The position numbers were made by a program, and so were the translations under genes. From positions 1 to 64,000 of the forward strand of contig PBKD01000012.1 of assembly GCA_002722055.1 (NCBI GenBank): a DNA stretch of 64,000 nucleotides. Direction: 5' to 3'. The stretch is from Rhodospirillaceae bacterium (lineage in GTDB: Bacteria; Pseudomonadota; Alphaproteobacteria; SHVP01). The notes below the pieces were generated by a model. It had not been told where the DNA came from and did no database searches. It saw nothing but the letters and a program-made list of their open reading frames with translations. This document shows, piece after piece, positions 3,076 to 38,769 of this stretch; position 1 is the first letter of the stretch, and the number at the start of each line of letters is the position of its first letter.

Positions 3076-3229
3076 TAAACTTTTTAACCAATTAACCATA
3101 TATAAATAACCAGTTTTTGATATACTTTCTTGAAAATTGTTCAAAATTGTGGGAAAAATAGATAATTTTGGGAATAATTCTTAAATTATCTAGTGATTGT
3201 CTTTATGGTAAGTAGCAATAGGTAAAATT

Positions 3230-22112: not shown

Positions 22113-23693
22113 ATGGGTAGTGCAAAAAATGCTGCAATTCCTATAAATCTTGTTAGAGAACCCAACTCTTATCAGGAAAAAATAAAGTCTATTGAGGATC
22201 TTTCTAATATAAGTTCTTCTGCTAAAAGATTGAATAAAAGGGTTGTATTAGCTCATGGTGTATTTGATTTGGTTCACCTTGGTCATGTTCGTCATCTTGA
22301 GACAGCAAAAAAAGAAGGCGATATTTTAATTGTTACAATCACCCCCGACGAATTTGTTAATAAAGGACCCGGTAGACCTGTTTTCAATGCTAACTTAAGA
22401 TCTGAAATGTTAGCAGCTCTTCAATGTGTTGATTGGGTAGGGATAAATAAATGGTCAAGTTCTGAATTATTAATAAATATAATTAAACCAGATATATATG
22501 TAAAAGGTTCTGATTATACTAATGAGGGTGAGGATATTACTGGTAAAATTAAAATTGAAAAGGATGCTGTTAAAAATAACGGTGGTAAGGTGATTTTCAC
22601 AGATGAAATTACCTTTTCTTCATCATCATTAATAAATCAAAATTTAAATATTTTTGAACCTCCTGTTGTTGAATATTTATCAAATATAGATAGAGATTTG
22701 CATCTAAAAAAATCTCTAAATGCTATAGATTCAATTAAAGATATGAATGTTCTATTTATCGGTGAAACAATTATTGACGAATATCAATATGCTAAACCTA
22801 TGGGAAAATCTGCTAAAGAAAATATAATTTCTTCCGCACATGTTGGAAGAGAAGTTTTTGCTGGAGGAGTAATAGCTGCAGCCAATCATGTAGCAGATTT
22901 TGTAAAAAAAGTTGATATAATAACTATTCTTGGGGAAAGAGAACCTTATCTAAATTTAGTAAATGACACACTTAGAGATAATGTAAATATAAATACTTTA
23001 TGGCGCTCAGGTATGCCTACAATAAGAAAATGTAGATATGTTGATCCTGGGCATATGAAGAAAATGTTTGAGGTATATCATTTTGATGATACACCTTTAT
23101 TTGGTAAGATTGAAGATCAATTATCTGAAATGATTCATGATAGAGCCAATAACTATGATTTAGTTATAGTTACTGATTTTGGTCATGGAATGTTTACTCA
23201 AAAATCAATTGATCATTTACAAACAAATTCTAAATTTTTAGCAGTAAATGCGCAGAGTAATAGTGCTAATCTTGGCTATAATTTAATCACTAAATATAAA
23301 AAATCTGATTTTATTTGTATTGATGCACCTGAAGCACGTCTTGCTATGTCTGATAGATACACTGACTTAGGTGATTTAATTGAGAGTAAATTAAGTAAAT
23401 CTATTAGTTGTAAAAATTTTATTGTTACACATGGTGAAAGAGGTTGTGTAACTTGGTCCGAAAAATTAGGAGCAAATAATGTTCCAGCATTTACCTCTCA
23501 AGTAGTAGATACTGTAGGTGCCGGAGACGCACTTTTATCAGTAACTTCACCTATTGTTGCAGCTGGTAATGATATTGATATAGCTGGTTTTATTGGTAAT
23601 ACGGTTGGTGCTTTGAAAGTTGGCATTGTTGGTCATAGAAAGTCTGTAGAAAAAATTCCAGTTCAAAAATATTTAACAACATTGCTTAAATAA
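22113..23693 (+). CDS. Nucleotidyltransferase-PfkB kinase fusion (HldE-like, reversed domain order)
   Basis: The 526-residue protein has a cytidylyltransferase-like domain first (residues about 40-195: HGVFDLVHLGHVRHL with HxGH at H55-H58, and YVKGSDY) and a ribokinase/PfkB domain second (about 205-526: FAGGVIAAANHV, and DTVGAGDA with catalytic D472). In Escherichia coli HldE the kinase comes first and the nucleotidyltransferase second. HldE phosphorylates D-glycero-manno-heptose 7-phosphate at C1 and attaches AMP. The downstream genes (GmhA-like, epimerase, HAD, transketolase) fit a nucleotide-heptose pathway. SD TAGGAG precedes the ATG. It heads a run of twelve plus-strand genes. Confidence 0.85.
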   Translation: MGSAKNAAIPINLVREPNSYQEKIKSIEDLSNISSSAKRLNKRVVLAHGVFDLVHLGHVRHLETAKKEGDILIVTITPDEFVNKGPGRPVFNANLRSEMLAALQCVDWVGINKWSSSELLINIIKPDIYVKGSDYTNEGEDITGKIKIEKDAVKNNGGKVIFTDEITFSSSSLINQNLNIFEPPVVEYLSNIDRDLHLKKSLNAIDSIKDMNVLFIGETIIDEYQYAKPMGKSAKENIISSAHVGREVFAGGVIAAANHVADFVKKVDIITILGEREPYLNLVNDTLRDNVNINTLWRSGMPTIRKCRYVDPGHMKKMFEVYHFDDTPLFGKIEDQLSEMIHDRANNYDLVIVTDFGHGMFTQKSIDHLQTNSKFLAVNAQSNSANLGYNLITKYKKSDFICIDAPEARLAMSDRYTDLGDLIESKLSKSISCKNFIVTHGERGCVTWSEKLGANNVPAFTSQVVDTVGAGDALLSVTSPIVAAGNDIDIAGFIGNTVGALKVGIVGHRKSVEKIPVQKYLTTLLK

Positions 23694-23705
23694 GAGAGGT
23701 TAAAG

Positions 23706-24317
23706 TTGAAAAATTTAATAAATAAATATTTTGAAAAAATCTCAGAATTATCATCATTATCAACTGTTAATTGCAATGAAGGTAAAATTTACAATCTATC
23801 TGAAACTATAGATTTATTTATTAATAAATCGTATGAGTCTACAAGGAATGGAAAAAAATTAATGTTTATTGGAAATGGTGGTTCATCAACCATTGCAAGT
23901 CATATGGCTGAAGATTTCAGTAAAGCAGCAAATTTAAGGTCATTAGCTTTTAACGACCCAGCATTTATAACATGTTTAGGTAATGATTATGGCTATGAAT
24001 ATATTTTTTCTAAACAAATTGAATTATTTGCCCAGCAAGGAGATATACTAGTAGCTATATCAAGTTCAGGGGAGTCAATGAATATTATTAATGCAGTAAA
24101 AGTAGCAAAAGAAATAGGGTGTTGGGTCCTAACTCTCTCAGGTTTCAATAAAAATAACCGATTAAATAAACTTGGAAATAGAAATGTTTTTGTACCATCT
24201 GACCAGTATGGTTTTGTTGAAATTGCACATCTATCTATTTGCCATGGAGCACTAGATATTGCATTGGGTTGGAAAGGCAAATCTTTAAATATTAATCCTA
24301 TAAAGGTAGCAATATAG
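23706..24317 (+). CDS. SIS-domain sugar-phosphate isomerase (GmhA-like)
   Basis: The 203-residue protein has the SIS-domain signature FIGNGGSSTIASHMAEDF and the phosphate loop AISSSGESMNIINAVK, and the C-terminal QYGFVEIAHLSICHGALDIALG helix of GmhA, where Glu and His act in catalysis. GmhA converts sedoheptulose 7-phosphate to glycero-manno-heptose 7-phosphate. TTG start, 6 bases after AGAGAGG, which overlaps the end of the upstream fusion gene's trailer; the gap is 12 bp. Context with the HldE-like fusion and transketolase supports heptose chemistry; another ketose phosphate is possible. Confidence 0.85.
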   Translation: MKNLINKYFEKISELSSLSTVNCNEGKIYNLSETIDLFINKSYESTRNGKKLMFIGNGGSSTIASHMAEDFSKAANLRSLAFNDPAFITCLGNDYGYEYIFSKQIELFAQQGDILVAISSSGESMNIINAVKVAKEIGCWVLTLSGFNKNNRLNKLGNRNVFVPSDQYGFVEIAHLSICHGALDIALGWKGKSLNINPIKVAI

Positions 24318-25310
24318 ATGAAAAATAAAAAAATACTTATCACTGGAGGTGCAGGGTATGTTGGAAGCTCCCTTGTTCCTAAGCTTTTGAAATTAGGACA
24401 TGAAGTCATAGTATTTGATTTATTCATGTATGGTGATGTTTTTTTTGATATTAAAAGTAATCCTAAACTCAAACTAGTAAAATCAGATATAAGAAACTTA
24501 AAAGATATTAGTAATAATATAAAGGGTTGTGACACAGTAATTCATCTTGCTTGTATATCAAATGATCCAAGTTTTGAGTTAAACCCTGAACTAGGTAAAT
24601 CAATTAACTATGATGCTTTTACACCATTAGTAGAAATATCTAAAGAAAATGGTGTTGAAAGATTTATATATGCTTCATCTTCAAGTGTATACGGAGTTAA
24701 AAATGAATTAGATGTAACTGAAGATTTATGTTTAGAACCTCTTACAGATTATTCAAAATATAAAGCCTTATGTGAAGAAATTCTTTTAAAAAACAAAGAA
24801 AAGGGGTTTTATCCATTAATCATTAGACCTGCAACTGTTTGTGGTTATGCAAGAAGACTAAGATTAGATCTTACAGTTAATATTTTAACTAATCATGCAA
24901 TAAATAATGGATTGATAAAGGTCTTTGGCGGATCCCAAAAACGACCAAATATAAATATAGAAGATATGACGGATCTATATGTCAATTGTATAAATTATCC
25001 CTTAGATAAAATTGACTGTAAAATTTTTAATGTTGGTTACGAAAACCACTCAATAAATGAAATTGCTAGAATTGTTAAAAATACACTTAAGAAAAAAATT
25101 GATATTGTGCATGAAAAAACAGATGATTTACGTTCTTACCATGTGTCATCTAAAAAAATAGAAAGAGAGTTAGGTTTTGTTCCAAAAAGAACAATAAATG
25201 AGGCGGTAGAAAGTATCAATCAAGCATTTATTCAAAATATTATTCCAAATTCTATGATTGATAGTAGATATTATAATATAAAAACAATGCAGAATATAAA
25301 TTTACAATAA
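24318..25310 (+). CDS. NAD-dependent nucleotide-sugar epimerase/dehydratase
   Basis: The 330-residue extended SDR has the NAD motif TGGAGYVGS (residues 9-17), the YASSSSVYG Ser region, and YSKYK as the YxxxK active site. The sugar-binding half has RPATVCGYARRLRLD and the RPNINIEDM loop. Such enzymes change C4 or other stereocentres on NDP-sugars; HldD, which epimerises ADP-heptose, is one comparison. Its ATG directly follows the GmhA-like stop, so the two are coupled. The final product is unknown. Confidence 0.88.
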   Translation: MKNKKILITGGAGYVGSSLVPKLLKLGHEVIVFDLFMYGDVFFDIKSNPKLKLVKSDIRNLKDISNNIKGCDTVIHLACISNDPSFELNPELGKSINYDAFTPLVEISKENGVERFIYASSSSVYGVKNELDVTEDLCLEPLTDYSKYKALCEEILLKNKEKGFYPLIIRPATVCGYARRLRLDLTVNILTNHAINNGLIKVFGGSQKRPNINIEDMTDLYVNCINYPLDKIDCKIFNVGYENHSINEIARIVKNTLKKKIDIVHEKTDDLRSYHVSSKKIERELGFVPKRTINEAVESINQAFIQNIIPNSMIDSRYYNIKTMQNINLQ

Positions 25311-25314
25311 GATT

Positions 25315-25929
25315 ATGAGAATAGGGTTAGATTTCGATAATACGATTGTTAATTACAATTATCTTGTACACGATATAGCTGTGAAAAGAAATTTAATAAA
25401 TAAAAATTTTAAAAAAGATAAAAAATTTATAAAGGAGCACTTAATAAGTTTAAATAAAGAGAGGGAATGGAGAGAAATTCAGTCATTAATTTATGGTAAG
25501 GAAATATTTAGAGCTAAATTATTTAATAATTTTAGTAACTTTATAAAAGAATGCAGAAAAAATAATTATTTTTTACAAATTGTAAGTCACAAAACTGAAG
25601 TATCAAATCTTACAAACAATGGCCCTAGATTAAGACAAAATGCAATTGAGTGGATGAATAGAAATAAGTTTTTTTCTAATTTTAGATTTAAAATTTCAGA
25701 TATACATTTTGAAAATACAAAGTCTAAAAAAATAGATAGAATTAACTTTATAGGTTTTGATTATTTTATTGATGATTTAGAGGAAATTTTTTTAAATAAA
25801 AAATGGCCATATAAAACTACTCCAATTCTTTTTAATAAAAAATCAAATGTAGAAAGTGACAAAATTATTTTATGTAATTCATGGAATAATATTTATAAAT
25901 TTTTTTTTAAAAAAAATATTTTGGTATAA
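25315..25929 (+). CDS. HAD-superfamily phosphatase-like protein
   Basis: The 204-residue protein begins MRIGLDFDNTIVNYN, with the HAD nucleophile D6 and acid/base D8. Motif II is probably S91 (QIVSHK), motif III K in TKSKK, and motif IV the Asp pair D153-D154 (FIDDLEE). HAD phosphatases remove phosphate through an aspartyl intermediate. GmhB, which dephosphorylates heptose 1,7-bisphosphate, belongs to the same superfamily, and the position beside GmhA- and HldE-like genes suggests the analogous step. DNA here is very AT-rich. The link to GmhB is functional inference, not close similarity. Confidence 0.72.
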   Translation: MRIGLDFDNTIVNYNYLVHDIAVKRNLINKNFKKDKKFIKEHLISLNKEREWREIQSLIYGKEIFRAKLFNNFSNFIKECRKNNYFLQIVSHKTEVSNLTNNGPRLRQNAIEWMNRNKFFSNFRFKISDIHFENTKSKKIDRINFIGFDYFIDDLEEIFLNKKWPYKTTPILFNKKSNVESDKIILCNSWNNIYKFFFKKNILV

Positions 25930-25934
25930 ATAAT

Positions 25935-27035
25935 ATGGTTAATAACTCAAAATTAAAAAAAATAGCTGAAGAATTAATTGGCATGTCACTATCAAAATTT
26001 AGTTCTAGTCAGTTAAAATTAAAAAACCACAGCAAAAATAACCGCCTATATTATTTTATAGCTAATGACAATAAAGAATATGCCCTTAAATCTTATTCTA
26101 AAGATAAATTACATGAAACTAAGAGGTTGGATGTCGAGTTTGAATCCTTAAATTATTTATTCAATTATGGTAAATTTAATATTCCTCGTCCAATAGCTCG
26201 AAATAATAAAGAAAATTGTGGGATATACTCATGGATTAACGGTGAAAAAGTTAATAACATTTGTGAAAAAGATGTACATCAAGTAGTAAACTTTATTAGT
26301 AATTTATTTGAGGTATCTAGGAAAAAAGAATCATATAATCTGCCAAATGCCAAAGAGGCTTGTTTTTCTGCAGACGTAATGGTTAGACAAATTTTTTCAA
26401 GATATAACTTATTAAATAAGGTTTCACCTTTTTATAATGATTTAGCAGAATTTTTAAGAGATGATTTTGAACCTTTGTTAACTCCTTTAGTTAATATAAC
26501 CAAAAAAAAATATAAATATTTAAATTTAAATTTTAATACTGAAATCCCTCACGAATATAAAATTTTATCTCCATCTGATTTTGGCTTTCATAACTCTATA
26601 AGAAACTTAAATGGAGAATTATATTTTATTGATTTCGAGTATTTTGGATGGGATGATCCGGCCAAACTTGTTGGTGATTTTTTATTACATCCTGCTATTG
26701 AAGATATTAATTTTAAATTAAATGAATGGAAATTATTTTATAAATTTATTAAAAAGATTTTTGATTTTGATAACGAATTTCATTCAAGGCTTCTTTTAAA
26801 CTTACCACTTTTATCAATGAGATGGTCCTTAATTTTATTAAATGAATTTTTACCTAATAACTGGGAAAGAAGGGTTTTCTCGGGCGAGAAAAAATCGAGG
26901 GCTACTGTATTAAAAAATCAGTTAAAAAAAGCAAGAAAGTATACACGTTTAGTAAGGTGGTCAATCAATAGTGATGAAAAGAACTTTTTATCAGAAAATT
27001 ATATTGATAATTTTTATTTAAAATCTTTTAACTAA
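25935..27035 (+). CDS. APH/choline-kinase-fold small-molecule kinase
   Basis: The 366-residue protein has an N-lobe with YFIANDNKEYALKSYSKDK (ATP-binding Lys), the catalytic-loop-like SPSDFGFHNSI (Asp acting as base, Asn binding metal) and the metal-binding FIDFEYFGWDDPAKLVGDF, typical of aminoglycoside phosphotransferase and choline kinase families. The canonical HGD of the loop is PSD here. Such enzymes phosphorylate hydroxyls of small molecules, including sugars in anomeric kinases. It is embedded in the carbohydrate cluster (5-bp gap upstream, 9 bp downstream), so a sugar or a decoration such as a choline-like group are candidate substrates. Confidence 0.75.
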   Translation: MVNNSKLKKIAEELIGMSLSKFSSSQLKLKNHSKNNRLYYFIANDNKEYALKSYSKDKLHETKRLDVEFESLNYLFNYGKFNIPRPIARNNKENCGIYSWINGEKVNNICEKDVHQVVNFISNLFEVSRKKESYNLPNAKEACFSADVMVRQIFSRYNLLNKVSPFYNDLAEFLRDDFEPLLTPLVNITKKKYKYLNLNFNTEIPHEYKILSPSDFGFHNSIRNLNGELYFIDFEYFGWDDPAKLVGDFLLHPAIEDINFKLNEWKLFYKFIKKIFDFDNEFHSRLLLNLPLLSMRWSLILLNEFLPNNWERRVFSGEKKSRATVLKNQLKKARKYTRLVRWSINSDEKNFLSENYIDNFYLKSFN

Positions 27036-27044
27036 GAGTTGATA

Positions 27045-27875
27045 ATGCATAAAAGTAAAAATATTAAACTAGATAATAGATCAATTTATTTAAGGCATTT
27101 AGCAATTAAAGGTCTTGCTGGTGGTAAAAGAGGTCATTTAGGTTCAGCCTTTTCTTTAATAGAAATTTTAAGAGTTTTATATGATAAAATTCTTGATATA
27201 GATTCTAATGATCCGGATAATATAAATCGAGATAGATGTATTTTAAGTAAAGGCCACGGTTGTCTAGCTTTATATTCTTTATTAGCAGATAAAAAGTTTT
27301 TTCCTGAATCTGAACTTGATAAATTTTGTCATTTTGATGGTATTTTAGGGGGACACCCTGAAGCATCTAAAATACCTGGGGTGGAAGCTTCAACAGGAGC
27401 TTTAGGTCATGGCCTTTCGATAGGTGTTGGGTTAGCTATCTCAGCTAAAATACAAAGAAGAAATTCTCGGGTATTTGTTATAATGGGGGATGGTGAAATC
27501 AATGAAGGATCAATATGGGAGGCTGCTTTATCTGCAGGTAAGCATAAACTAGATAATTTAACGGCTATCATTGATTATAATAAGCTCCAGTCTTACGATA
27601 AAACATCAATTGTTCAAGACCTTGAACCTCTATCAGATAAGTGGAAAAGTTTTGGTTTTGAGGTTGAGGAAGTAAATGGACATGATGTTACAGAACTTGA
27701 AAATTTATTTTCAAACCTTCCATTAAAAAAGTCTTCACCATCGGCAATAATTTTACATACAGTTAAGGGTAAAGGTATTAAAGAAGCTGAGGGAAACCCT
27801 AAATGGCATCATAAATCAAAAATAACTGAGTCTGAGATAAACAAATTATATTCGGAATTGGAGTTAAACTTATGA
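27045..27875 (+). CDS. Transketolase, N-terminal (ThDP-binding) subunit
   Basis: The 276-residue product has the HxxGxxG-like HLGSAFSLIEIL start, SKGHGCLALY, and the thiamine-diphosphate motif GDGEINEGSIWEAALSAG with NKLQS. This is the first third of a transketolase, encoded as a separate subunit. I chose the ATG at 27045 over a TTG at 27039 because AAGAG sits 6 bases upstream of the former. The next gene completes the enzyme and overlaps by 4 bases (ATGA). Transketolase can produce sedoheptulose 7-phosphate from xylulose and ribose phosphates; in a sugar cluster it likely supplies a specific precursor. Confidence 0.9.
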   Translation: MHKSKNIKLDNRSIYLRHLAIKGLAGGKRGHLGSAFSLIEILRVLYDKILDIDSNDPDNINRDRCILSKGHGCLALYSLLADKKFFPESELDKFCHFDGILGGHPEASKIPGVEASTGALGHGLSIGVGLAISAKIQRRNSRVFVIMGDGEINEGSIWEAALSAGKHKLDNLTAIIDYNKLQSYDKTSIVQDLEPLSDKWKSFGFEVEEVNGHDVTELENLFSNLPLKKSSPSAIILHTVKGKGIKEAEGNPKWHHKSKITESEINKLYSELELNL

Positions 27876-28816
27876 GAAAAACATGTTTAGATATGGTTTA
27901 TGAGCTAGCTAAAGCTGATGATAGAATAGTTTTTATTGGTTCTGATTTAGGGGCAGGCACTTTATCTGAAATGCAAAAAAATATGCCTGAAAGGTTTTTT
28001 ATGGAGGGTGTTTCTGAAGCTAATATTATAGGTATGGCAGCAGGTTTAGCAATGGATGGGTTTATTCCATATGTAAATACAATTTCAACATTCATTACTA
28101 GAAGATGTTATGAACAAATTGCAATTGATTTATGTTTACACAATTTACCTGTAAAATTAATAGCAAATGGAGGAGGTCTAGTTTATGCCCCTTTGGGCCC
28201 AACTCACCTAGCAATAGAGGATATAGCAATAATGAGATCTCTGCCTAATATGAATATTGTATCCCCTTCAGATGCAGAAGAAATGAAAAGGTTTATGAAT
28301 CAATCCAAAGAAATTAAGGGACCAGTATATATACGACTAGCCAAAGGAGGAGATGAAATAGTTTCTGATCCCAAAAATGGTTTCAAATTTGGAGAATCTA
28401 TTCTTATTAAAGATGTTGGTGAGGTTTTGATTGTTTCTTCAGGTATTACAACAAAAGAAGCAATTTATGCATCAGAAGAGTTATCTAAAGAAGGTATAAA
28501 GGCTGGTGTTCTTCATATGCATACAATTAAACCATTTGATTATAAAAGTATTATTAAGTACTCACAAAAGGTAAAACTTATTGTTTCAGTTGAAGAGCAT
28601 ATAAAAAATAATGGATTAGGTAGTGCAATTGGTGATGTTCTTAATGATAATTGTTATCATAAAATGCCTAAACTCATTAAATTAGGAATACCTGATCAAT
28701 TTCCTGATAAATATGGAACTCAAGAAGATTTACTTAAATATTATTCTTTAGATTCAAAATCAATATATGAAAGTGTATTAGGATTTATAAAGTCAAAAGG
28801 GCTAAAGGCTGCTTAA
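27872..28816 (+). CDS. Transketolase, C-terminal (pyrimidine-binding) subunit
   Basis: The 314-residue protein has the pyrimidine-domain features SEANIIGMAAGLAMDGFIPYV (Glu that activates ThDP) and GPTHLAIEDIAIMR, followed by the C-terminal domain (SSGITTKEAIYASEEL, SVEEHIKNNGLGSAI). It pairs with the preceding N-terminal subunit; the genes overlap by ATGA, ensuring equal synthesis. Split transketolase-like pairs are common in surface-carbohydrate clusters, where they provide non-housekeeping C2 transfers. Alternative: a related acetoin- or DXS-like activity, though the domain arrangement is transketolase. Confidence 0.9.
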   Translation: MRKTCLDMVYELAKADDRIVFIGSDLGAGTLSEMQKNMPERFFMEGVSEANIIGMAAGLAMDGFIPYVNTISTFITRRCYEQIAIDLCLHNLPVKLIANGGGLVYAPLGPTHLAIEDIAIMRSLPNMNIVSPSDAEEMKRFMNQSKEIKGPVYIRLAKGGDEIVSDPKNGFKFGESILIKDVGEVLIVSSGITTKEAIYASEELSKEGIKAGVLHMHTIKPFDYKSIIKYSQKVKLIVSVEEHIKNNGLGSAIGDVLNDNCYHKMPKLIKLGIPDQFPDKYGTQEDLLKYYSLDSKSIYESVLGFIKSKGLKAA

Positions 28817-28859
28817 TATTTTAACTATATGTTAATCCTTATTAAATAAGCTTATTTAT

Positions 28860-29669
28860 ATGGATAAACAAGTTCAAAATAGGGTTAATGATTTCGATGC
28901 ATTTTCAAAAAAATTTTTGGAAATAGGTTATGTTATACGACCTATTGTTAATCTCGAAGCATTAAATAAAATTAGAGATACAGTTATTCAGGTAGCAGCA
29001 GATATATTAGAAACTGATATACCTAAAGATAAAGAATTTTTTTTGAACTCATTTCATTATCTAATTGATTATAATAAGTTAAATGATTTTAGACTATCTA
29101 TCTATAATAAATTAAACTCTTTTCCTTGGTTTAAATCTCTATTTTATTCATTAGCAGAATCATATATTAAATCTTTAGTAGGTAATGAGCTAGTTATTCA
29201 AAAAAGAGTAAATTTAAGTATACAACTACCTAATGATGATAGTTCATTATTGCCAGTTCATGCTGATGTTTGGAATGGAGATAGTCCTTACGAGTTAGTC
29301 ATGTGGATTCCAATTGTCGATTGTTATGATTCTAAGTCAATGTTTATATTGCCAATCGGAGAAGAAAATAAAATATCAAAAAGTATTAAATCATTTAGAA
29401 CTAAAAGTAGTGAAGATTTATTTGATATTATAAAAGGAAATATTAAATGGCTAGATATTAAGTATGGAGAAGTTTTATTATTTTCACAAAATTTAATGCA
29501 CGGAAATATTATAAACAAAGAAAATGAAACGAGGTGGTCTATGAATTGTAGATTCAAAAGTTTATTTTCACCATATTCTTCAAAAAAGTTAGGAGAATTT
29601 TTTGAACCCCTGTCTATTAAGCCAGTAACAAAATTAGGAATGAATTATAAATTCCCGAAAGGTTTTTAA
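28860..29669 (+). CDS. Sporadic carbohydrate cluster 2OG-Fe(II) oxygenase
   Basis: The 269-residue protein has the iron-binding facial triad of 2-oxoglutarate oxygenases: H134-x-D136 in LPVHADVWNGDSPYE and distal H214 in FSQNLMHGNI, with R225 (NETRWSMNCRF) placed to bind 2-oxoglutarate. This matches what I recall of the 2OG-Fe(II) oxygenase family that travels with the LIC12192 family protein, encoded next. It would hydroxylate or otherwise oxidise a sugar or sugar nucleotide in the cytosol. A 43-bp gap precedes it, the longest in the run. Confidence 0.8.
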   Translation: MDKQVQNRVNDFDAFSKKFLEIGYVIRPIVNLEALNKIRDTVIQVAADILETDIPKDKEFFLNSFHYLIDYNKLNDFRLSIYNKLNSFPWFKSLFYSLAESYIKSLVGNELVIQKRVNLSIQLPNDDSSLLPVHADVWNGDSPYELVMWIPIVDCYDSKSMFILPIGEENKISKSIKSFRTKSSEDLFDIIKGNIKWLDIKYGEVLLFSQNLMHGNIINKENETRWSMNCRFKSLFSPYSSKKLGEFFEPLSIKPVTKLGMNYKFPKGF

Positions 29670-29671
29670 TA

Positions 29672-30100
29672 TTGAAAAAATCCAAAAAAAAATATGGTTT
29701 TAGAGGGTATGTTGCTAGTGGACGTATCAATGGTCATTTTATTCCACAACATGTTCAAAATATAGTAATTAGAGATTATGCAAATAAAAATAATTTGTTA
29801 TATAAATTATCCTCTTCAGAATATATCATGGAAAATTCTACTATGATATTAGAATCTCTTATTTGTGAATTAGATAAATTAGAGGGTATAATTTTATATT
29901 CTATGTTTCAGTTACCTTCGGATAGAATTTATAGAACAAATTTTTATAAAAAAATCATTGAGAGTAAGTGTACATTACATGCTGCAGTAGAAAATAATAT
30001 GCTTATAGATGATTCAGATATTGTGAAATGGGAGGAGATTCTAATCCTTTCTCAAATTATTCCAGATAATATAGAAGAAATTAAAAATGTCGTACATTGA
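29672..30100 (+). CDS. Sporadic carbohydrate cluster protein, LIC12192 family
   Basis: The 142-residue protein carries the sequence I associate with this family: GFRGYVASGRINGHFIPQHV, QNIVIRDYANKNNLLY, LSSSEYIMENS and LEGIILYSMFQLP. The family is found only with carbohydrate-cluster genes in scattered bacteria, including Leptospira, and its function is unknown. It may be an enzyme or a partner of the adjacent oxygenase. TTG start, preceded at 9 bases by GAAAGG, just 2 bp after the oxygenase stop. Its end overlaps the next gene by 14 bp. Confidence 0.8.
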   Translation: MKKSKKKYGFRGYVASGRINGHFIPQHVQNIVIRDYANKNNLLYKLSSSEYIMENSTMILESLICELDKLEGIILYSMFQLPSDRIYRTNFYKKIIESKCTLHAAVENNMLIDDSDIVKWEEILILSQIIPDNIEEIKNVVH

Positions 30101-30752
30101 TTTTGTTGGAATATTACATAATAAAACAAAGAGAGATTATATAGAGAGAGTAGTCTCTCATGATAAAGCAGAGTGCGCAAAAATTGCTTCGAAATTTAGT
30201 TTTGACTACTGGGATGGTGAAAGATCATTCGGTTTTGGAGGGTATAAATATGATGGTAGATGGTCTGTAGTTGCTAAAGCAATGATTGATCATTACAAAC
30301 TAAATAAAGAGTCTAAAATTTTAGATGTTGGATGTGGTAAAGGTTTTTTAATCTATGAATTTACAAAGCTTATTCCAGGTATTACCGTAAATGGCTTAGA
30401 TATTTCAGATTATGCAGTAAATAATTCAAAAGAAGAAATAAGAGAAAATATTTTATTGGGTTCAGCAGGGGATAAATTTCCTTGGGAAGATAATTCTTTT
30501 GATTTAGTTATAAGTATAAATACACTTCATAATTTATATAATTATGATTTATACAATGCGATAAAAGAGATAAATAGAGTAAGTTCTAAAAATTCACATA
30601 TTACTATTGAGTCATATAGAGGTGAAAGGGAGAAAGTTAATTTACTTTATTGGCAATTAACCTGTAGGTCATTTATGAAACCTGAAGAATGGGAGTGGGT
30701 TTTTTCAGAATACGGTTACAAAGGTGACTACGGCTGTATATTTTTTGAATAA
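30087..30752 (+). CDS. Class I SAM-dependent methyltransferase
   Basis: The 221-residue protein has motif I ILDVGCGKGFLIYEF, the acidic motif II GLDISDYA, and FPWEDNSFDLVISINTLHNL (motif IV-V region). An N-terminal segment (FDYWDGERSFGFGGYKYDGRW) is typical of a family seen in LPS/flagellar sugar clusters. It is probably a sugar O-, N- or C-methyltransferase. Coupled by a 14-bp overlap with the LIC12192 gene and ends directly before the next ATG. Acceptor unknown. Confidence 0.85.
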   Translation: MSYIDFVGILHNKTKRDYIERVVSHDKAECAKIASKFSFDYWDGERSFGFGGYKYDGRWSVVAKAMIDHYKLNKESKILDVGCGKGFLIYEFTKLIPGITVNGLDISDYAVNNSKEEIRENILLGSAGDKFPWEDNSFDLVISINTLHNLYNYDLYNAIKEINRVSSKNSHITIESYRGEREKVNLLYWQLTCRSFMKPEEWEWVFSEYGYKGDYGCIFFE

Positions 30753-31448
30753 ATGAGATTTAAAATGGATAACTTTACAAAAGAAAATCAATATAATGAA
30801 TTATTAAATATTGCAAATAATAATGGTTTATCTTCACTAGGTCTAATGACTAATCAGGTTTGGCATGAAGACCCAAGAAGATTAGCAATAATATTATCTA
30901 GATATAAATTTGTTTCTAAAATGTTAAGTGGTAGGGGTAGTGTGGTTGAAATAGGTTGTGCAGATGCTTTTGGCACAAGAATTGTTCAACAAGAAGTAAA
31001 AAATATTTCAGTATTAGATTTTGATCCAATTTTTATAAATGATGTAAAAGATAGGTTAGATAAAAATTGGCCATTAAACGCGATGGTTCATGATATTCTT
31101 GATGGGCCCATACCCTTTGCTCCATATGAAGCAGCGTATAGTTTAGATGTTTTAGAGCATATTAATAAAAAGCACGAAGATATTTTTCTTAATAATATTG
31201 TAAAGTCTCTTAATATAAATGGAGTATTAATAATTGGAACACCAAGTATTTACTCACAAGATTATGCCTCAAAACAAAGTAGGGAAGGGCATATAAATTG
31301 TAAATCTTCTGAAGAATTAAAATATTTACTAGAAAAGTATTTTTATAATGTTTTCATTTTTTCAATGAATGATGAGGTTGTTCATACTGGTTTTTATCCA
31401 ATGGCTCATTACTATTTCGCTCTTTGTAGTGGGGTAAAAAGTGAATAG
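30753..31448 (+). CDS. Class I SAM-dependent methyltransferase, second
   Basis: The 231-residue protein has VVEIGCADAFGTRIVQQEV (motif I), VLDFDPIF (acidic motif II) and YEAAYSLDVLEHI (motif IV), followed by LIIGTPSIYSQ. It is not closely similar to the preceding methyltransferase. The start may be the ATG at 30753, abutting the previous stop, or an ATG 12 bases later; neither has a strong SD. It overlaps the next gene by 8 bases. Together the two enzymes imply at least two methyl decorations, or a methyl donor for a C-methylated sugar. Confidence 0.82.
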   Translation: MRFKMDNFTKENQYNELLNIANNNGLSSLGLMTNQVWHEDPRRLAIILSRYKFVSKMLSGRGSVVEIGCADAFGTRIVQQEVKNISVLDFDPIFINDVKDRLDKNWPLNAMVHDILDGPIPFAPYEAAYSLDVLEHINKKHEDIFLNNIVKSLNINGVLIIGTPSIYSQDYASKQSREGHINCKSSEELKYLLEKYFYNVFIFSMNDEVVHTGFYPMAHYYFALCSGVKSE

Positions 31449-32292
31449 CACTGCTGATGTAGCTATAATCGGAGGGGATAGCTTTATTGGCAGAAATTTA
31501 TATATTTATCTTAAAAATATAGGTCTGGAAGTTTTTTGTACATCCCATAAAAAGAAAAAAGATTTTATACATTTAGATTTATTAGATAGTTCAAGTAAAT
31601 GGCCCAAAATAAAATCAAAAGTAGCTATAATATGTGCAGGCGTGACATCCATAGAAAAATGTAATCTTAATAAAGAATCATATACAATAAATGTTAATTC
31701 AACTATCAAATTGATAGATAAATTAACAGCAGATGGTATATTTACAATTTTCCTATCCTCAAGTCAGGTATTTAATGGAATGATACCAAATTCATCAAGA
31801 GAAAACTTTTGTAACCCATTATCGGTTTATGGTGAACATAAGTATATTGTAGAAAAAAAAATTATAAAAGATATATCTAATAAATGTATATTAAGAATTA
31901 CAAAAATTATTAATAAATCTTTACCTATATTTCATGATATTTATTCAAAATTAAATGATGGTAAAAAAATTAAAGTATTTAAAAATTATTTTATTTCACC
32001 TGTAACAATTGATTTAACATGTAATATAATACTAAAAATTATAAAATTAAAAAAAGAAGGCATTTATCAACTTTCATCAAGTGATCAGATAAGTTATTTT
32101 GATATGGCTAATTTGTATGTTGAAAATTTAGGTTTAAATAATCACTTAATAGAAGGTATAAATGCAAGACCAGTTGAAATAGGTCTAAATTGTATACCTA
32201 AATATTCTTATTTGGAAATGAGTAAAGAGAAATTATTTTTTGATTTTGATCAACCTACTTCAAAATTTTCAATAAATTCAATTCTCAATTAA
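31441..32292 (+). CDS. RmlD-like sugar-nucleotide reductase (extended SDR)
   Basis: The 283-residue protein starts at a GTG inside the previous gene's end. It has the Rossmann motif GGDSFIGRNL and the RmlD-like features INVNSTIKLIDKL, FLSSSQVFNG and YGEHKYIVEKKI (Y-x-x-x-K active site). The first Gly of the usual GxxGxxG is kept as G-G-D-S-F-I-G. The family reduces 4-keto nucleotide sugars (for example dTDP-4-dehydrorhamnose). It is the last gene of the twelve-gene run and converges on the glycosyltransferase gene with 14 bp between them. Confidence 0.82.
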   Translation: MNSTADVAIIGGDSFIGRNLYIYLKNIGLEVFCTSHKKKKDFIHLDLLDSSSKWPKIKSKVAIICAGVTSIEKCNLNKESYTINVNSTIKLIDKLTADGIFTIFLSSSQVFNGMIPNSSRENFCNPLSVYGEHKYIVEKKIIKDISNKCILRITKIINKSLPIFHDIYSKLNDGKKIKVFKNYFISPVTIDLTCNIILKIIKLKKEGIYQLSSSDQISYFDMANLYVENLGLNNHLIEGINARPVEIGLNCIPKYSYLEMSKEKLFFDFDQPTSKFSINSILN

Positions 32293-32306
32293 AAAATTTT
32301 TAAATT

Positions 32307-35231
32307 CTATTTTACTATAATATGTTCTGGTTTCTTTTTTTGATTATATAAATCCCACATTTTAATAAATGATTTTTCCAAGTTTTTTGCAAGTTTACTA
32401 TTATCAAATAAGGGAGCTGTATATCTTTTTTCTAATATTTTTTGTTTTAATTTCTTTAACTCATTTATATTTTGAGAAAAATAAAGTGCTTTTTCTTCAT
32501 ATTCACGTAAAGAATATGTGATTAATTCAGGAACTTCTAAAGCAGTTAAAATTGTAGCACCATTCCTACTTGGAGGAGAGTCACCAAATAAGGTAATTAG
32601 AGGAACACCTGCCCATAGTGTGTCTGTTGAAGTTACACCACCACCATGAAATTGGTTATCTAATGATAAATCTGCCAAACTTAACCTGGATAAATGTTCA
32701 TCGTGTGGCAACGATTTAGCAAAGATAAGTTTTTCTTTGCTAACTCCTCTTTTTTCTGCTTCAAGAATTAAATTCTTTCTACTTGAAATGCTTCCCTCAA
32801 GCAACCATAGCACTGAATTTGGAATAATTTTTAATAGTCTCATCCATATAGAAAACATTGAAGGGTAAAATTTATAATGTGAATTGAAATTAGTAAAAAC
32901 AAATGCTTCTTCAGGAAGGTTCTGACTTTTACGATTAAATTGTTTTTTTGATACATTAGGTATAGAAGTAGCCATAAAGGTATGTGGAAGGTGGACAATT
33001 TTTTCAGTTATAAATTGTTCCTCTTCTAAAGGGTTTTGCACTTTATCAGTAATAAGGTAATCAATAAACTTTGCACCTGTTGTTGAAGAGAAACCAAGCC
33101 AATGGGCTTGAATTGGAGCTGGTCTTAATGCAAAAATTTCGTACCTGCAACCTCTTGTATGACCAGCTAAATCAATAAGAATATTTATTTCGTCCGATAA
33201 AATTATTTTAGCAGCATCCTCATGTGAAAGATAAGTAATATCAGTAAATTTATCAAACTCTTTTTTAAAATCTTCAGTAATATTATCTTTTCCATATGTA
33301 GATATAGAGTATGCATGATATTCAAAATTATTTTTATCTCTTGCTTCTAAAACACCTTTAAAAGCTATTGCCACACTATGTCTTCTAAAATCTGGTGAGA
33401 TAAAACCAATTTTTAATTTATTTTTAGGATTTATATAGTTTCTTTTCTTTATTAAATCTTTTTTTGAACTTACAAACCTTTGCGCTCTTTCAGAAGTACA
33501 TATAGCTGTTCTTTTCTTAATTGTTTTACTAGCCGGCATACATTGTAAACCAAATGGAGAAACTGAAGGTACTTGTTCCTTCTCCAGTTCATTATTTGTA
33601 TTTTCAATAACCTTTGATACAACTGCCTCTAAATTTTCCCAATTACATTGTTGCATCAATGCATGAGCAAAAAAAGGATAAACTAAATTATTTTTTGGAT
33701 CCTTTTCAAGTGCTTTTCTAAAAGCTATAACTGATTCATCATGTCTTCCATATAATTGAAGCAATGTTCCTAGGTTGAAATATATCTGAGATTTTTCTGG
33801 ATGTTTATCAATAAGTTTTTTATATATTGAAATCGCTTCGTAATATTTACCTAAATTTTGAAGTGATACAGCTAAGTTATTTAATGCTTCAGGGTAATCA
33901 GGTTCAAGGTCATATGCTTTTTTATATGCATCTATTGCTAGTTCTTCTTTATTTAATGATTGATAGACTAAACCGATACCATTAAAAGATCTTGGGTCTT
34001 TAGGATTAATATTTATAGCTTTTTTAAAGTATTTTAAAGCTTCATTAAATTTAGCGTGATTTCTAAGTAAATTACCTAAATTAATATAAGTTACTGAAAG
34101 TTTAGGTGCTAATTTTATAGCAGATTTATAATTATCATAAGCTTTTTCAAAAATACCTTTCTCACTATATGAATTGCCTATATTATTATAAGTCTCAGCA
34201 GACTCTCCAAATTTTTTAATAATTTTCTCAAAGTGACTTATCGCTTTATAATGTTCCTTTTGATTTTGTAATGATATTCCAACATGTAAATTAGCATCAA
34301 TATTTTTTGGATCTATTTCTATGACCTTTTTAAATCTTTCTTCTGCATCCTTAAACTTATTTTGTCCAGATAAAATTTGGCCAATTCCCATTTGAATATT
34401 TATATCTTTTGGGTCGATATTTTCAGCTTTATCGAATAATTTCTTTGCTTCAAAATACTCTCCATTATTTATTTTAAAAAAACCGTAAGCCGTAAGGGAA
34501 GCGATAGATTTTGGCTCTAATCTAATAGCTGCTTTATAATACGTCTCAGCATCTTCCTTTCTATTTTGTCTTTCAATAGACTTAGCTAGTTCAATAATTC
34601 CGTTTACCCAATTAGGTTTCAAATTTACTGCAATACGGAATTTATCCTCAGCTTTTTTGTACAAACCTTTAAAATATAATATTAGACCTAAATGCAGGTA
34701 TGCCTCAGCATGGTTTTTATCAAGGGTAATAGCAACTCTTAAACTTTTTTCTGCCTCATCATATCTTTTAAACTTTATTAATACTGCTCCTAAGGCTAGA
34801 TGCGCTTCAATTAACTTTGGATTAATATTTATAGCCTTTTGAAGAGTGATAATTGCATCTTCTAACTTATTTAGTTTTAAATATAATGAACCCAAATTAC
34901 ATAGCGTAGTACTAATATCTGGATCTATTTCGATTGCTTCTAGATATATTTCTTCTGCTTCATCGAACCTTTTCTGGTTTTGATATAAATTACCTAGATT
35001 AGATAAAATTTTTGGATCATTAGGTTTAATTTTTAAAGCATTTTTTAATATAGGTTCTGCTTTATCATATTTATTTTGTTCCAAGTAGACAGCACCTAAA
35101 TTAATCAGAGCTTCTGGGAGTTTTGGATCTTTTTCTAGTGCTTTATTATAAAAATATACAGCGTCATCAATCCTTCCGGACCGATGAAGTGATAATCCTA
35201 TTGTAAATTGGTCACTTGCAGTACTTTCCAT
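32307..35231 (-). CDS. TPR-GT41 glycosyltransferase (OGT/SPINDLY-like), candidate flagellin glycosyltransferase
   Basis: The 974-residue protein has about 14-15 tetratricopeptide repeats in residues 5-540 (recurring IDPKxxxAxxNLGxxL pattern) and a GT41 catalytic region in about 600-960. Landmarks are KIGFISPDFRRHSVA, QAHWLGFSSTTGAKFIDYLI, FTNFNSHYKFYP and TDTLWAGVPLITLFG. TPRs bind the protein acceptor. In typical OGTs the last motif is preceded by a conserved GHTT; here residues 863-868 read GGGVTS. The gene lies head-to-head with flagellin 1, sharing a 286-bp intergenic region, and tail-to-tail with the sugar cluster. This placement suggests it transfers that sugar to flagellin in the cytosol before export, as FlmG does in Caulobacter. 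Confidence 0.85.
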   Translation of the reverse strand: MESTASDQFTIGLSLHRSGRIDDAVYFYNKALEKDPKLPEALINLGAVYLEQNKYDKAEPILKNALKIKPNDPKILSNLGNLYQNQKRFDEAEEIYLEAIEIDPDISTTLCNLGSLYLKLNKLEDAIITLQKAININPKLIEAHLALGAVLIKFKRYDEAEKSLRVAITLDKNHAEAYLHLGLILYFKGLYKKAEDKFRIAVNLKPNWVNGIIELAKSIERQNRKEDAETYYKAAIRLEPKSIASLTAYGFFKINNGEYFEAKKLFDKAENIDPKDINIQMGIGQILSGQNKFKDAEERFKKVIEIDPKNIDANLHVGISLQNQKEHYKAISHFEKIIKKFGESAETYNNIGNSYSEKGIFEKAYDNYKSAIKLAPKLSVTYINLGNLLRNHAKFNEALKYFKKAININPKDPRSFNGIGLVYQSLNKEELAIDAYKKAYDLEPDYPEALNNLAVSLQNLGKYYEAISIYKKLIDKHPEKSQIYFNLGTLLQLYGRHDESVIAFRKALEKDPKNNLVYPFFAHALMQQCNWENLEAVVSKVIENTNNELEKEQVPSVSPFGLQCMPASKTIKKRTAICTSERAQRFVSSKKDLIKKRNYINPKNKLKIGFISPDFRRHSVAIAFKGVLEARDKNNFEYHAYSISTYGKDNITEDFKKEFDKFTDITYLSHEDAAKIILSDEINILIDLAGHTRGCRYEIFALRPAPIQAHWLGFSSTTGAKFIDYLITDKVQNPLEEEQFITEKIVHLPHTFMATSIPNVSKKQFNRKSQNLPEEAFVFTNFNSHYKFYPSMFSIWMRLLKIIPNSVLWLLEGSISSRKNLILEAEKRGVSKEKLIFAKSLPHDEHLSRLSLADLSLDNQFHGGGVTSTDTLWAGVPLITLFGDSPPSRNGATILTALEVPELITYSLREYEEKALYFSQNINELKKLKQKILEKRYTAPLFDNSKLAKNLEKSFIKMWDLYNQKKKPEHIIVK

Positions 35232-35287
35232 GAGAATAATTTATATATCTCAAGGTTAATAATTTATTTAAATACAAAAAAAATTTA

Positions 35288-35345
35288 TAGGCATATTTTT
35301 CTGCAGAAAAACAAAAATTTCTTTTTTTATGATTTTTTTTGCCTA
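35288..35345. promoter_or_regulatory. Candidate enhancer half-sites upstream of flagellin 1
   Basis: TAGGCATATTTTT (35288-35300) and, inverted, TTTTTTTTGCCTA (35333-35345) lie about 105-150 bp before the sigma-54 element. TAGGCA/TGCCTA half-sites recur upstream of flagellin 2, so they may bind the sigma-54 activator (FlbD-type). Inference from recurrence and distance. Confidence 0.35.
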
Positions 35346-35433
35346 GTTAACAAAAAATTAATTTATAAGAAATTATTTTAATAAAAAAAAGCAATTAAAA
35401 CAATAACTTGTATAATTATATTTTTAATTTGGG

Positions 35434-35449
35434 TTGGCATAACCATTGC
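35434..35449 (+). promoter_or_regulatory. Sigma-54 promoter of flagellin 1
   Basis: TTGGCATAACCATTGC matches the RpoN consensus with GG (35436-35437) and GC (35448-35449) separated by 10 bases. Predicted transcription start is about 35461, giving a 57-base leader. The flagellin 2 site differs at a single base. Confidence 0.9.
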
Positions 35450-35517
35450 GAATGTTATGTCGGCGATTATGCCACATGAAAACCCAGGCTTTGAGCCGCC
35501 TCGTGAGAGAGAGAAAA

Positions 35518-36333
35518 ATGGCTATATCTATAAATACTAACTTAGCAGCTGCTGTAGCTGTACAAAATTTAAATAAAACAAATAAACTACTTAATAGTTC
35601 ACAACTTAATATTGCTACTGGTTTAAGGGTAAATGGTCCAAAGGATGATGCATCTACTTATGCTATTGCCCAAAATCAGAGAGGTGATGTTGCTGGTTTC
35701 AAAGCTATTAGAAGTGCTTTAGCAAGCGGAGAGTCAGCAGTAAATGTTGCTATCGATGCTGGAAAGGCAATTTCTGATTTATTAATTGAAATTAAAGCAA
35801 AAGTTGTTCAATCAAACCAATCCACATTAGATGCTGCATCAAGAACTGCACTTCATAATGATATGAAAGCATTAAGAGATCAAATTACTTCAATTGTTAA
35901 TACAGCTGAGTTTAATGATGTGAACTTAATTCAATCTGGTGCACCAACATTTTCAGTTTTAAGTAATGTTGATGGAAGTGTAATTAAGGTTAGTGCTCAA
36001 GAGATGCATACTACATCACTTGCAGTAAATGCAATCAACTTATTAACAAGTGCTAATGCTGCTTCAGCACTAGGAGCAATTAATACTGCTATTTTGATAG
36101 CATCTGAAAGGTTAGCGGGCTTAGGTGCTTCAGCAAAACGGTTAGATGTACAAAGTGAGTTTATTGTCAAATTAACAGACGTTTTAATAGATGGTGTTGG
36201 TAACCTTGTTGATGCTGATATGGGTGAAGAAAGTGCAAGACTTCAGGCTTTGCAAGTTAAGCAACAACTTGGTATTCAAGCTATTTCAATTGCTAATGCT
36301 CAACCACAATCAGTGCTTGGGTTATTTAGGTAA
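35518..36333 (+). CDS. Flagellin 1
   Basis: From the ATG at 35518 (after GAGAGAGAG) the product is 271 residues. The open frame extends 72 bases further upstream but that part overlaps the mRNA leader and lacks flagellin similarity. The N-terminus (SINTNLAAAVAVQNLNKTNKLLNSSQL) and LRVNGPKDDASTYAIAQ form flagellin D0/D1, and the C-terminus (LVDADMGEESARLQALQVKQQLGIQAISIANAQPQSVLGLF) gives the matching C-terminal D0. The variable D2/D3 region is nearly absent, as in many alphaproteobacteria. Ser/Thr are plentiful for O-glycosylation. Followed by flbT and flaF. Confidence 0.96.
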   Translation: MAISINTNLAAAVAVQNLNKTNKLLNSSQLNIATGLRVNGPKDDASTYAIAQNQRGDVAGFKAIRSALASGESAVNVAIDAGKAISDLLIEIKAKVVQSNQSTLDAASRTALHNDMKALRDQITSIVNTAEFNDVNLIQSGAPTFSVLSNVDGSVIKVSAQEMHTTSLAVNAINLLTSANAASALGAINTAILIASERLAGLGASAKRLDVQSEFIVKLTDVLIDGVGNLVDADMGEESARLQALQVKQQLGIQAISIANAQPQSVLGLFR

Positions 36334-36383: not shown

Positions 36384-36782
36384 ATGCCTTTAAAATTAAC
36401 ATTAAAACCAGGCGAGAAATTTGTTCTAAATGGTGGTGTTTTGATCAACGGTGATAGAAGAGCAGATTTGATAATAGAAAATCAGGTTTCTCTTTTAAGA
36501 GAAAGAGATGTACTTCAACCTATTGAAGCAAATACACCAGTAAAGAGAATATATTTTTCAATAATGATGATGTATCTTGATGGTGGCTTAGAGAGTGGCC
36601 ATTATAATGATTTTACTGAAACAATGACTGACTTTATGAGTTTACTAACTACAGAAAGTGCACTTAAAAAGTGTCAACATATCTTGGATGAAGTACACGA
36701 ACAAAGATTTTATACAGCATTAATGACTTGTAAGTCACTTCTTCCCTTTGAGAAAGAGAGATTAGAATATGTCGTACAGTAG
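36384..36782 (+). CDS. flbT: FlbT, flagellin synthesis post-transcriptional regulator, copy 1
   Basis: The 132-residue protein matches FlbT over its length: LKLTLKPGEKFVLNGGVLINGDRRADLIIENQ, RERDVL, and the ANTPVKRIYFSIMMMYLD core. In Caulobacter FlbT binds the flagellin mRNA leader and controls its stability and translation. It lies 50 bp after flagellin 1 and overlaps flaF by 14 bp. The only strong SD-like tract, GAGGAGGGAG at 36351-36360, is 23 bases before the ATG, unusually far, so translation may need folding of the spacer or a different entry. A second copy lies at 39821-40288. Confidence 0.93.
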   Translation: MPLKLTLKPGEKFVLNGGVLINGDRRADLIIENQVSLLRERDVLQPIEANTPVKRIYFSIMMMYLDGGLESGHYNDFTETMTDFMSLLTTESALKKCQHILDEVHEQRFYTALMTCKSLLPFEKERLEYVVQ

Positions 36783-37155
36783 TAATGAAGCAACGTTAGG
36801 TAAAAGTGAATCTGTAATTCCACCAGAAGCTGTTGTGGATGCACGCAAAACTGAAATAGAAGCTTTTGAAAAGGCTACTCAATCCCTAATTAAAAATAAA
36901 GAGAAAGAAATTACTAATCAAAGCTTTATAGAAGCAATAGAGTTAAATAAGCTTTTGTGGAGAACACTAGAAACTGATTTAGCATCAAAGGAAAATCAAC
37001 TTCCAGATGCTCTAAAAGCAAAATTAATTTCAGTTGCTATGTGGGTTGAAAAACATTCTTTACTTGCTGAAAAAGGTGAAGCTAAGGTTGATTCACTTAT
37101 CGAAGTAAATCAATCAATTGTAAAGGGCTTAATAGCTTCAACTGAAAGAGAATAA
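36769..37155 (+). CDS. flaF: FlaF, flagellin synthesis/secretion cofactor, copy 1
   Basis: The 128-residue protein has the FlaF helix pattern: EAFEKATQSLIKN, ELNKLLWRTLETDLASKENQLPDALKAKLISVAMWV, and EVNQSIVKGL. FlaF acts with FlbT in alphaproteobacterial flagellin control and in export of flagellin. It overlaps the flbT end by 14 bp. Its N-terminus (residues 1-28) is unlike canonical FlaF, whereas the copy 110 bp downstream keeps the usual ENPRQTEYRLFADVT start. Confidence 0.9.
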   Translation: MSYSSNEATLGKSESVIPPEAVVDARKTEIEAFEKATQSLIKNKEKEITNQSFIEAIELNKLLWRTLETDLASKENQLPDALKAKLISVAMWVEKHSLLAEKGEAKVDSLIEVNQSIVKGLIASTERE

Positions 37156-37947: not shown

Positions 37948-38769
37948 ATGGTACAAGGATTATCTATTAATACAAACCCTGCAGCACATGTAGCGCTGCA
38001 ACAGTTGAATAAGACTAATAAACTACTTAATCATACTCAGTTGAAAATTACATCAGGTCTTAAAGTGAATGGACCTAAAGATGACTCTTCAACATTCCAG
38101 ATATCAACGCGTCTTAGAGGTGATATTTCTGGTGTTAATGCTGTTAAAATTGCATTAACAAATGGTGATTCTACTGTTCAAACAGCTATAACAGCTGGTA
38201 AACACATAAAAGATCTCCTAATTGAAATGAAGGGAAAAGTTATTCAAGCGAACCAGGCAGGTATCGATGGTAACTCAAGAACCGCTCTTCACAATGACTT
38301 CAGAGCTTTAGCAGACCAAATTTCTACTATTGCTTTAACTGCTGAATTTAACGATGCTAACCTGATTAAATCTGGTGCAACTACATTCACGGTTTTAAGT
38401 TCTCAAGATGGAAGTACAATTTCAATTAGTGCTCAATCAATGGATACTACTGCTTTGGCCATTAATGCCTCGAATCTTACAACAAGCGGCAGTGCAGCTG
38501 CTGCTAGAACAGCTATAGATAGTGCTATAGTTCTAGCTGCTGATAAACTTGCTGTTCTTGGTGCTGCATCAAAAAGAGTTGATGTTCAATTAGAATTTAC
38601 AGGTTCTTTGGCGGACATTCTTACTGAAGGTTTAGGAAATCTCGTAGATGCTGACCTTGCAAAAGAAAGTGCCCAATTACAAGCATTCCAGATCAAACAA
38701 CAATTAGGTGTTCAAGCATTAGCAATAGCAAATGCTGGTCCACAAACGATCTTGGGGCTATTTCAATAA
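37948..38769 (+). CDS. Flagellin 2
   Basis: The 273-residue flagellin begins MVQGLSINTNPAAHVALQQLNKTNKLLNHTQL and keeps the KVNGPKDDSSTFQISTRLRGDI and GLGNLVDADLAKESAQLQAFQIKQQLGVQALAIANAGPQTILGLF ends. The centre carries TTSGSAAAARTAI, shared with flagellin 3 and not 1, so 2 and 3 are closer relatives. AAGAGG lies 11 bases before the ATG. It has its own sigma-54 promoter and structured leader. A perfect 10-bp stem-loop follows the stop, separating it from flagellin 3. Confidence 0.96.
   Translation: MVQGLSINTNPAAHVALQQLNKTNKLLNHTQLKITSGLKVNGPKDDSSTFQISTRLRGDISGVNAVKIALTNGDSTVQTAITAGKHIKDLLIEMKGKVIQANQAGIDGNSRTALHNDFRALADQISTIALTAEFNDANLIKSGATTFTVLSSQDGSTISISAQSMDTTALAINASNLTTSGSAAAARTAIDSAIVLAADKLAVLGAASKRVDVQLEFTGSLADILTEGLGNLVDADLAKESAQLQAFQIKQQLGVQALAIANAGPQTILGLFQ

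Follow-up and report, generated by a model that had tools for sequence, protein, structure and literature searches.

The genes at 22113-32292 of the window, which is the whole stretch of 64,000 nucleotides analyzed here, appear to form a cassette for a nucleotide-activated, heptose-like sugar that would be tailored by a 2-oxoglutarate (2OG)-Fe(II) oxygenase, OG2, together with a protein of the LIC12192 family, and then be transferred to flagellin by a GT41 glycosyltransferase encoded next to the cassette; we give this reading a probability of roughly 0.45. The sugar probably decorates the flagellum in this marine bacterial group. OG2 and the LIC12192 protein belong to TIGR04324 and TIGR04323, two widespread families that have no assigned product and are labelled only as “sporadic carbohydrate cluster” families. 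The analysis assigns to them a predicted fold, a constant partnership and a likely pathway, with a likely acceptor in one lineage, by which their function becomes testable. If the recombinase fold predicted for the LIC12192 protein has indeed been turned to sugar chemistry, such a repurposing would be unusual.

The oxygenase and its partner genes

The core of the cassette consists of three genes:

28860..29669, + strand: 2OG-Fe(II) oxygenase OG2, 269 amino acids (TIGR04324)
29672..30100, + strand: LIC12192 family protein, 142 amino acids (TIGR04323), predicted serine-recombinase fold
30087..30752, + strand: class I SAM methyltransferase MT1, the third core gene (PF13847)

The first-pass annotation had placed the first two proteins in the sporadic carbohydrate cluster families and had suggested an HMM search, which found both above the curated NCBIfam cutoffs and hence members of the families: OG2 matched TIGR04324 with 330.1 bits (E 8e-99, residues 17-266; cutoff 150), and the LIC12192 protein matched TIGR04323 with 135 bits (E 1e-39, residues 10-129; cutoff 55). 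Neither protein had a match in Pfam at 1e-3, and a sequence search of the PDB with the two family profiles gave no usable match. The iron-binding triad H134, D136 and H214 that had been noticed in OG2 is indeed present in the sequence and, together with R225, is invariant in all 77 homologues. R225 is placed 11 residues past the distal histidine, with the same spacing as in phytanoyl-CoA hydroxylase. When the AF2 model of OG2 (mean pLDDT 91.5) was compared with solved structures by Foldseek, the nearest of the 298 matches at E 0.001 or below were PhyH-type enzymes, among them PtlH (E 9e-10), EctD and HygX, an enzyme of hygromycin biosynthesis, and on this model OG2 is PhyH-like, with a double-stranded beta-helix fold. 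The HxD...H triad and the 2OG-binding arginine likewise identify it as a PhyH-type 2OG-Fe(II) oxygenase, whose turnover is predicted to depend on iron and 2OG. The oxidizing role suggested for OG2 is read from its residues and its modelled fold, and we infer that it would be the heptose that OG2 oxidizes.

In 79 of 80 related loci, the LIC12192 gene comes directly after the OG2 gene, mostly with an overlap of a few bases; in the 80th the contig ends. These loci were collected by similarity to OG2 alone, and adjacency at such a frequency means that the pairing is not due to chance. MT1 is present in 48 of the 53 loci that extend over at least 18 kb; some of these were chosen by LIC12192, and the presence of LIC12192 in 53/53 of them is therefore not independent. 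The constant pair with its nearly constant methyltransferase points to a shared step. The pair occurs in loci from Proteobacteria, Actinomycetota, Cyanobacteriota, Myxococcota and Ignavibacteriota, while the plasmid collection gave no match to it. A reduced setting was observed in L171, where OG2 and LIC12192 are followed by an SDR and MT1 is absent, with a carbamoyltransferase and an ABC-2 transporter nearby; such a setting may make the pair's own reaction easier to isolate.

The sugar cassette and its product

The remaining genes of the cassette are as follows:

22113..23693, + strand: HldE-like protein with reversed order, nucleotidyltransferase (residues 35-175) followed by PfkB kinase (205-508)
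23706..24317, + strand: GmhA-like SIS isomerase (TIGR00441 102 bits, below the cutoff of 209.45)
24318..25310, + strand: SDR (EPI) (nearest solved structure 6vo6, phmmer E 3.5e-34)
25315..25929, + strand: HAD-like phosphatase, from a sequence motif (no Pfam or NCBIfam match)
25935..27035, + strand: APH-like (aminoglycoside/choline-type) kinase (PF01636 E 4e-4, just under the gathering score)
27039..27875, + strand: split transketolase, N part (PF00456; nearest PDB entry 6yak, the N component of a split-chain transketolase, E 5e-66)
27872..28816, + strand: split transketolase, C part (PF02779, PF02780)
30753..31448, + strand: second SAM methyltransferase, MT2 (in 14 of the 53 loci of at least 18 kb)
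31441..32292, + strand: RmlD-like sugar-nucleotide reductase (PF04321 80.4 bits)

The pair had been described as lying between transketolase and methyltransferases, which agrees with the split transketolase upstream (27039-28816) and the methyltransferases downstream (30087-31448). In the proposed route, the split transketolase would supply a seven-carbon (or similar) ketose phosphate, and the GmhA-like isomerase, the HldE-like kinase/nucleotidyltransferase and the HAD phosphatase would convert it into an NDP-heptose. The Cj1427-like SDR would then oxidize C4, with the electrons passing to 2-oxoglutarate, OG2 and its obligatory partner LIC12192 would oxidize the sugar, either by hydroxylation or by oxidative epimerization, and the methyltransferases and the RmlD-like reductase would finish it.

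The HldE-like protein departs from the standard kinase-then-adenylyltransferase order of HldE and scores below every cutoff applied (TIGR02199, 112.8 against 181.5 bits; TIGR02198, 94 against 345; NF008454, 163 against 521). A second HldE-like family found in related loci, for example in L017, apparently has the reversed order too. Elsewhere in the genome of the window there are separate, standard GmhA, HldE and HldD genes and a full-length transketolase; the HldE copy, on contig C14, has the standard domain order and scores 432 bits, and the other GmhA copy scores 173 bits, also under the cutoff of 209.45. The low scores of the GmhA- and HldE-like proteins of the cassette, the reversal of the latter and the standard copies elsewhere suggest that the cassette is a second, specialized route. 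That it might be the LPS heptose route of this genome was considered and rejected, as the standard HldE, HldD and GmhA copies are located elsewhere. Among the 53 loci of at least 18 kb, an HldE-like protein is present in 39 and a GmhA-like protein in 25, and the APH gene is never found without transketolase; the HAD protein is fused to the APH-kinase homologue in 15 of the 42 loci having both.

The structure nearest to the SDR, PDB 6vo6, is one that we take to be Campylobacter Cj1427, the 4-dehydrogenase of GDP-heptose. GmhA-like, HldE-like and Cj1427-like proteins recur alongside the pair in related loci, and in L170 homologues of both GmhA (4e-53) and GmhB (5e-33) stand beside it. Cj1427 oxidizes GDP-heptose at C4 while reducing 2-oxoglutarate to L-2-hydroxyglutarate (PMC10680097). 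Six related loci, L018, L019, L022, L028, L043 and L053, four of which are near relatives of each other, encode an L-2-hydroxyglutarate oxidase, which scored 331 bits against a cutoff of 299. The occurrence of this oxidase in some of the clusters would be expected if the SDR makes L-2-hydroxyglutarate as Cj1427 does (PMC10680097). The oxidase in these relatives lends indirect support to a predicted Cj1427-type, 2OG-dependent C4 oxidation by the SDR of the cassette. In L018 the gene lies at 1974-3248, and its product probably recycles the by-product of a Cj1427-like dehydrogenase.

The link to heptose, which is drawn from enzyme kinship, is plausible but indirect. The heptose of the first-pass hypothesis is favoured by the GmhA- and HldE-like enzymes and the SDR near Cj1427 beside the pair; it is weakened by the scores of the former two below curated cutoffs, by which the substrate may not be a heptose, by the separate standard heptose set of the genome and by the distance of the SDR from Cj1427. 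Against a heptose also speak the APH kinase, which has no place in the standard heptose route, and a replacement of the split transketolase by a pyruvate-dehydrogenase E1 alpha/beta-like pair in L065, L072 and L081 (Pelagibacteraceae/gammaproteobacterial) and in L170. Such an E1-like pair would not supply sedoheptulose 7-phosphate, and it was never seen together with the transketolase pair. These four loci make a branched-chain sugar a serious rival, in which the thiamine-diphosphate enzyme would add a two-carbon branch, a hydroxyacetyl group in the case of transketolase or an acetyl group in the case of E1 alpha/beta, to the 4-keto sugar nucleotide formed by the SDR, and OG2 and LIC12192 would act on the branched product. 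L170 also carries a B12-type radical SAM gene and encodes an RfbH-like dehydratase (280 bits), a type of enzyme found in pathways to C4-branched sugars, e.g. yersiniose. Moreover, a genome that already has a full-length transketolase needs no extra supply of sedoheptulose 7-phosphate. The frequent company of GmhA-, HldE- and HAD-like genes with the split transketolase suits a supply role, however, the replacement was seen in only four loci, and the nearest solved relative, 6yak, is named as an ordinary split-chain transketolase; we regard branching as an unlikely, if serious, alternative to the heptose-like sugar.

Linkage to GT41 and flagellins

The cassette is followed by a glycosyltransferase gene on the opposite strand and by flagellar genes:

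32307..35231, − strand: TPR and GT41 (OGT-type) glycosyltransferase, probable flagellin glycosyltransferase (PF13844 308 bits; many TPR matches)
35446..36333, + strand: flagellin (PF00669, PF00700)
36384..37155, + strand: FlbT and FlaF (PF07378, PF07309)
37948..38769, + strand: flagellin (PF00669 at G000:C12:37966)
38865..39692, + strand: flagellin (PF00669 at G000:C12:38883)

The GT41 enzyme, which was absent from the first-pass annotation, stands between the cassette and the flagellins. It matches human OGT with E 3e-82 and retains the lysine of NFNxxYK and the aspartate before LWAG. In the reading that we prefer, it would move the finished sugar onto the adjacent flagellins in the cytoplasm, comparable to FlmG, the flagellin glycosyltransferase of Caulobacter, which uses pseudaminic acid (PMC7591256).

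The order cassette, GT41, flagellin/FlbT/FlaF of the window is kept in G003 (locus L215), which belongs to another genus of the same family. The pair, GT41 and flagellin also co-occur in G008 and in G010, a member of another family, with the gene order kept in loci L153 and L155 as far as these are sequenced, whereas in G001 and G004 the cassette and GT41 are followed by the contig end. When GT41 orthologues were defined by a score of more than 450 bits in a family set of ten genomes, the window's own (G000) and nine relatives, orthologue and TIGR04323 were found together in six of the ten; counted with G010, the genomes having both are G000, G001, G003, G004, G008, G009 and G010. G006 and G007 have flagellins but neither the orthologue nor TIGR04323. 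G002 is a genome of 64% completeness, and G005 has the pair on an 8.8-kb contig and no strong GT41 orthologue. No cassette genes are near the GT41 paralogues of G000, G004 and G006 (L218-L220), and in G006 and G034, two genomes without the pair, neither cassette genes nor GT41 were found beside the flagellins on their contigs. These results suggest a flagellin glycosylation island, in which transferase and sugar genes are linked to flagellins in the window, L215, L153 and L155 and the glycan is predicted.

It might be argued that the product of the cassette goes into a surface polysaccharide or LPS, the adjacency of the cassette to flagellin genes being incidental. Flagellin was found nearby, within about 10 kb, in only 4 of the 80 OG2 loci, a count that rests on BLAST, as flagellin HMMs matched nowhere, even in loci with BLAST-detected flagellins. 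An ABC-type flippase/exporter gene is present in 15 of the 53 loci of at least 18 kb, and in a quick OG2 tree the flagellin-linked loci are scattered rather than forming one clade, so that the linkage needs at least three changes. However, the order of GT41 and flagellin is conserved across genera, the GT41 orthologue and the pair share their presence and absence, the paralogues in the same genomes are not linked to a cassette, and no polymerase or flippase was recognized among the genes scanned, at 22113-36333. We consider the polysaccharide or LPS a poor prospect as the destination in this lineage, and the linkage to flagellin in G003, G008 and G010 means that the pair is not always tied to O-antigen loci. 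The probable flagellar island of the first-pass annotation is, therefore, supported by gene order and shared presence for this lineage only, and does not extend to the wider set of loci, where flagellin would be one destination of the product and not the general one.

The sugar on these flagellins could instead be a nonulosonic acid, as suggested by seven matches to NeuB-type synthases on contigs C7, C8 and C11 of the 2.2 Mb genome G000, and there may be several such pathways side by side; a Maf-type (PF01973) transferase was not found in G000. On the other side of the cassette, a divergently placed SBBP beta-propeller protein of about 920 amino acids (19175-21940, − strand), with homologues in L002, L004, L005, L166, L167 and L169, may also belong to the flagellar island.

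The fold of the LIC12192 protein and comparison with known systems

The least expected result, and one that is new relative to the first-pass annotation, is the fold of the LIC12192 protein. In a Foldseek search of the PDB with its AF2 model (pLDDT 88.8), matches 1-13 were all serine recombinases, the 14th being a putative DNA-binding protein, and the best were serine integrases/resolvases (E 9e-5, TMq 0.67). The protein very probably has the fold of a serine-recombinase catalytic domain, as judged from this model. In a scan of 385 alphaproteobacterial genomes with the NCBI model of TIGR04323, four matches fell below the cutoff: one was a broken copy from the family itself, and the others were proteins of G055, G098 and G208, all three of which are Mpi-type serine recombinases that align collinearly with 20-23 bits; two of the three share one genus and the matches therefore represent two independent cases. 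Profile-profile comparison gave a probability of 0.6% with mixed resolvases, and 12% (P 0.0025) with Mpi-type recombinases in a collinear alignment that spans almost the entire length; the reversed control gave P 0.3 over 16 columns. An HMM built from only the 72 LIC12192 sequences gathered here did not detect recombinases, which the wider NCBI model alone did, and the kinship at the sequence level is accordingly suggestive, while it is the fold that carries the claim. We think common ancestry with serine recombinases likely.

The chemistry of the recombinases seems to have been lost. With residues paired through profile alignments and spacing rather than by structural superposition, the position of the nucleophile, 16, is serine in 54 and alanine in 15 of the 72 sequences, the DRxxR motif of recombinases (DRLGR) is replaced by FMLPx/FQLPS, and the protein, at 142 amino acids, stops past the core of the catalytic domain and lacks the C-terminal DNA-binding domain. 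An alternative in which it stands outside the enzymology, as a regulator that binds DNA or as a recombinase that is still active, and for which its fold and its weak profile kinship might speak, is very improbable given these losses and a slot directly after OG2 that is fixed across phyla, unlike that of a regulator. The family has conserved residues of its own, G12, Y13, Q26, Q29, N30, R34, E50, R88 and E107, which suggests a new active site or a surface for its partner. As a tentative proposal, the LIC12192 protein could be a recombinase catalytic domain that has shed its DNA chemistry and become an obligatory subunit of OG2, or a second enzyme, the pair making an undescribed, oxidized higher-carbon sugar that is put on flagellin by the OGT-type GT41 in this lineage. 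The literature searched contained no report of a recombinase fold or of a flagellin/GT41 setting for TIGR04323, nothing under either family name and nothing on the split transketolase. In L142 (G386:C1:2267455-2267646), a LIC12192 copy is broken by an in-frame stop, perhaps as a relic of a lost cassette.

Each component has a recognizable counterpart among known systems. OG2 shares its fold, the HxD...H triad and the arginine after it with the PhyH-type oxygenases PtlH, EctD and HygX, but its identity to them is 10-17%, and its family has a long conserved stretch of its own at 225-250 (RWSMNCRFK...P). The LIC12192 protein resembles the catalytic domain of a serine recombinase, either resolvase or Mpi invertase, in predicted fold and collinear profile alignment, and differs from it in the lack of catalytic residues and DNA-binding domain and in its location in sugar clusters. 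The cassette is similar to the Cj1427 heptose pathway of Campylobacter jejuni in having an SDR near Cj1427, GmhA- and HldE-like enzymes and a sugar-nucleotide reductase and, in some of its relatives, an L-2-hydroxyglutarate oxidase, although the SDR is a distant relative of Cj1427 only, and the available part of the description of that pathway mentions neither an oxygenase nor a LIC12192 protein or a split transketolase (PMC10680097). Like FlmG, which is also from an alphaproteobacterium, the GT41 enzyme would be a two-part soluble enzyme with an N-terminal flagellin-binding region and a C-terminal glycosyltransferase, but it is an OGT-like GT41 whose donor would be the sugar of the cassette, whereas the donor of FlmG is pseudaminic acid (PMC7591256).
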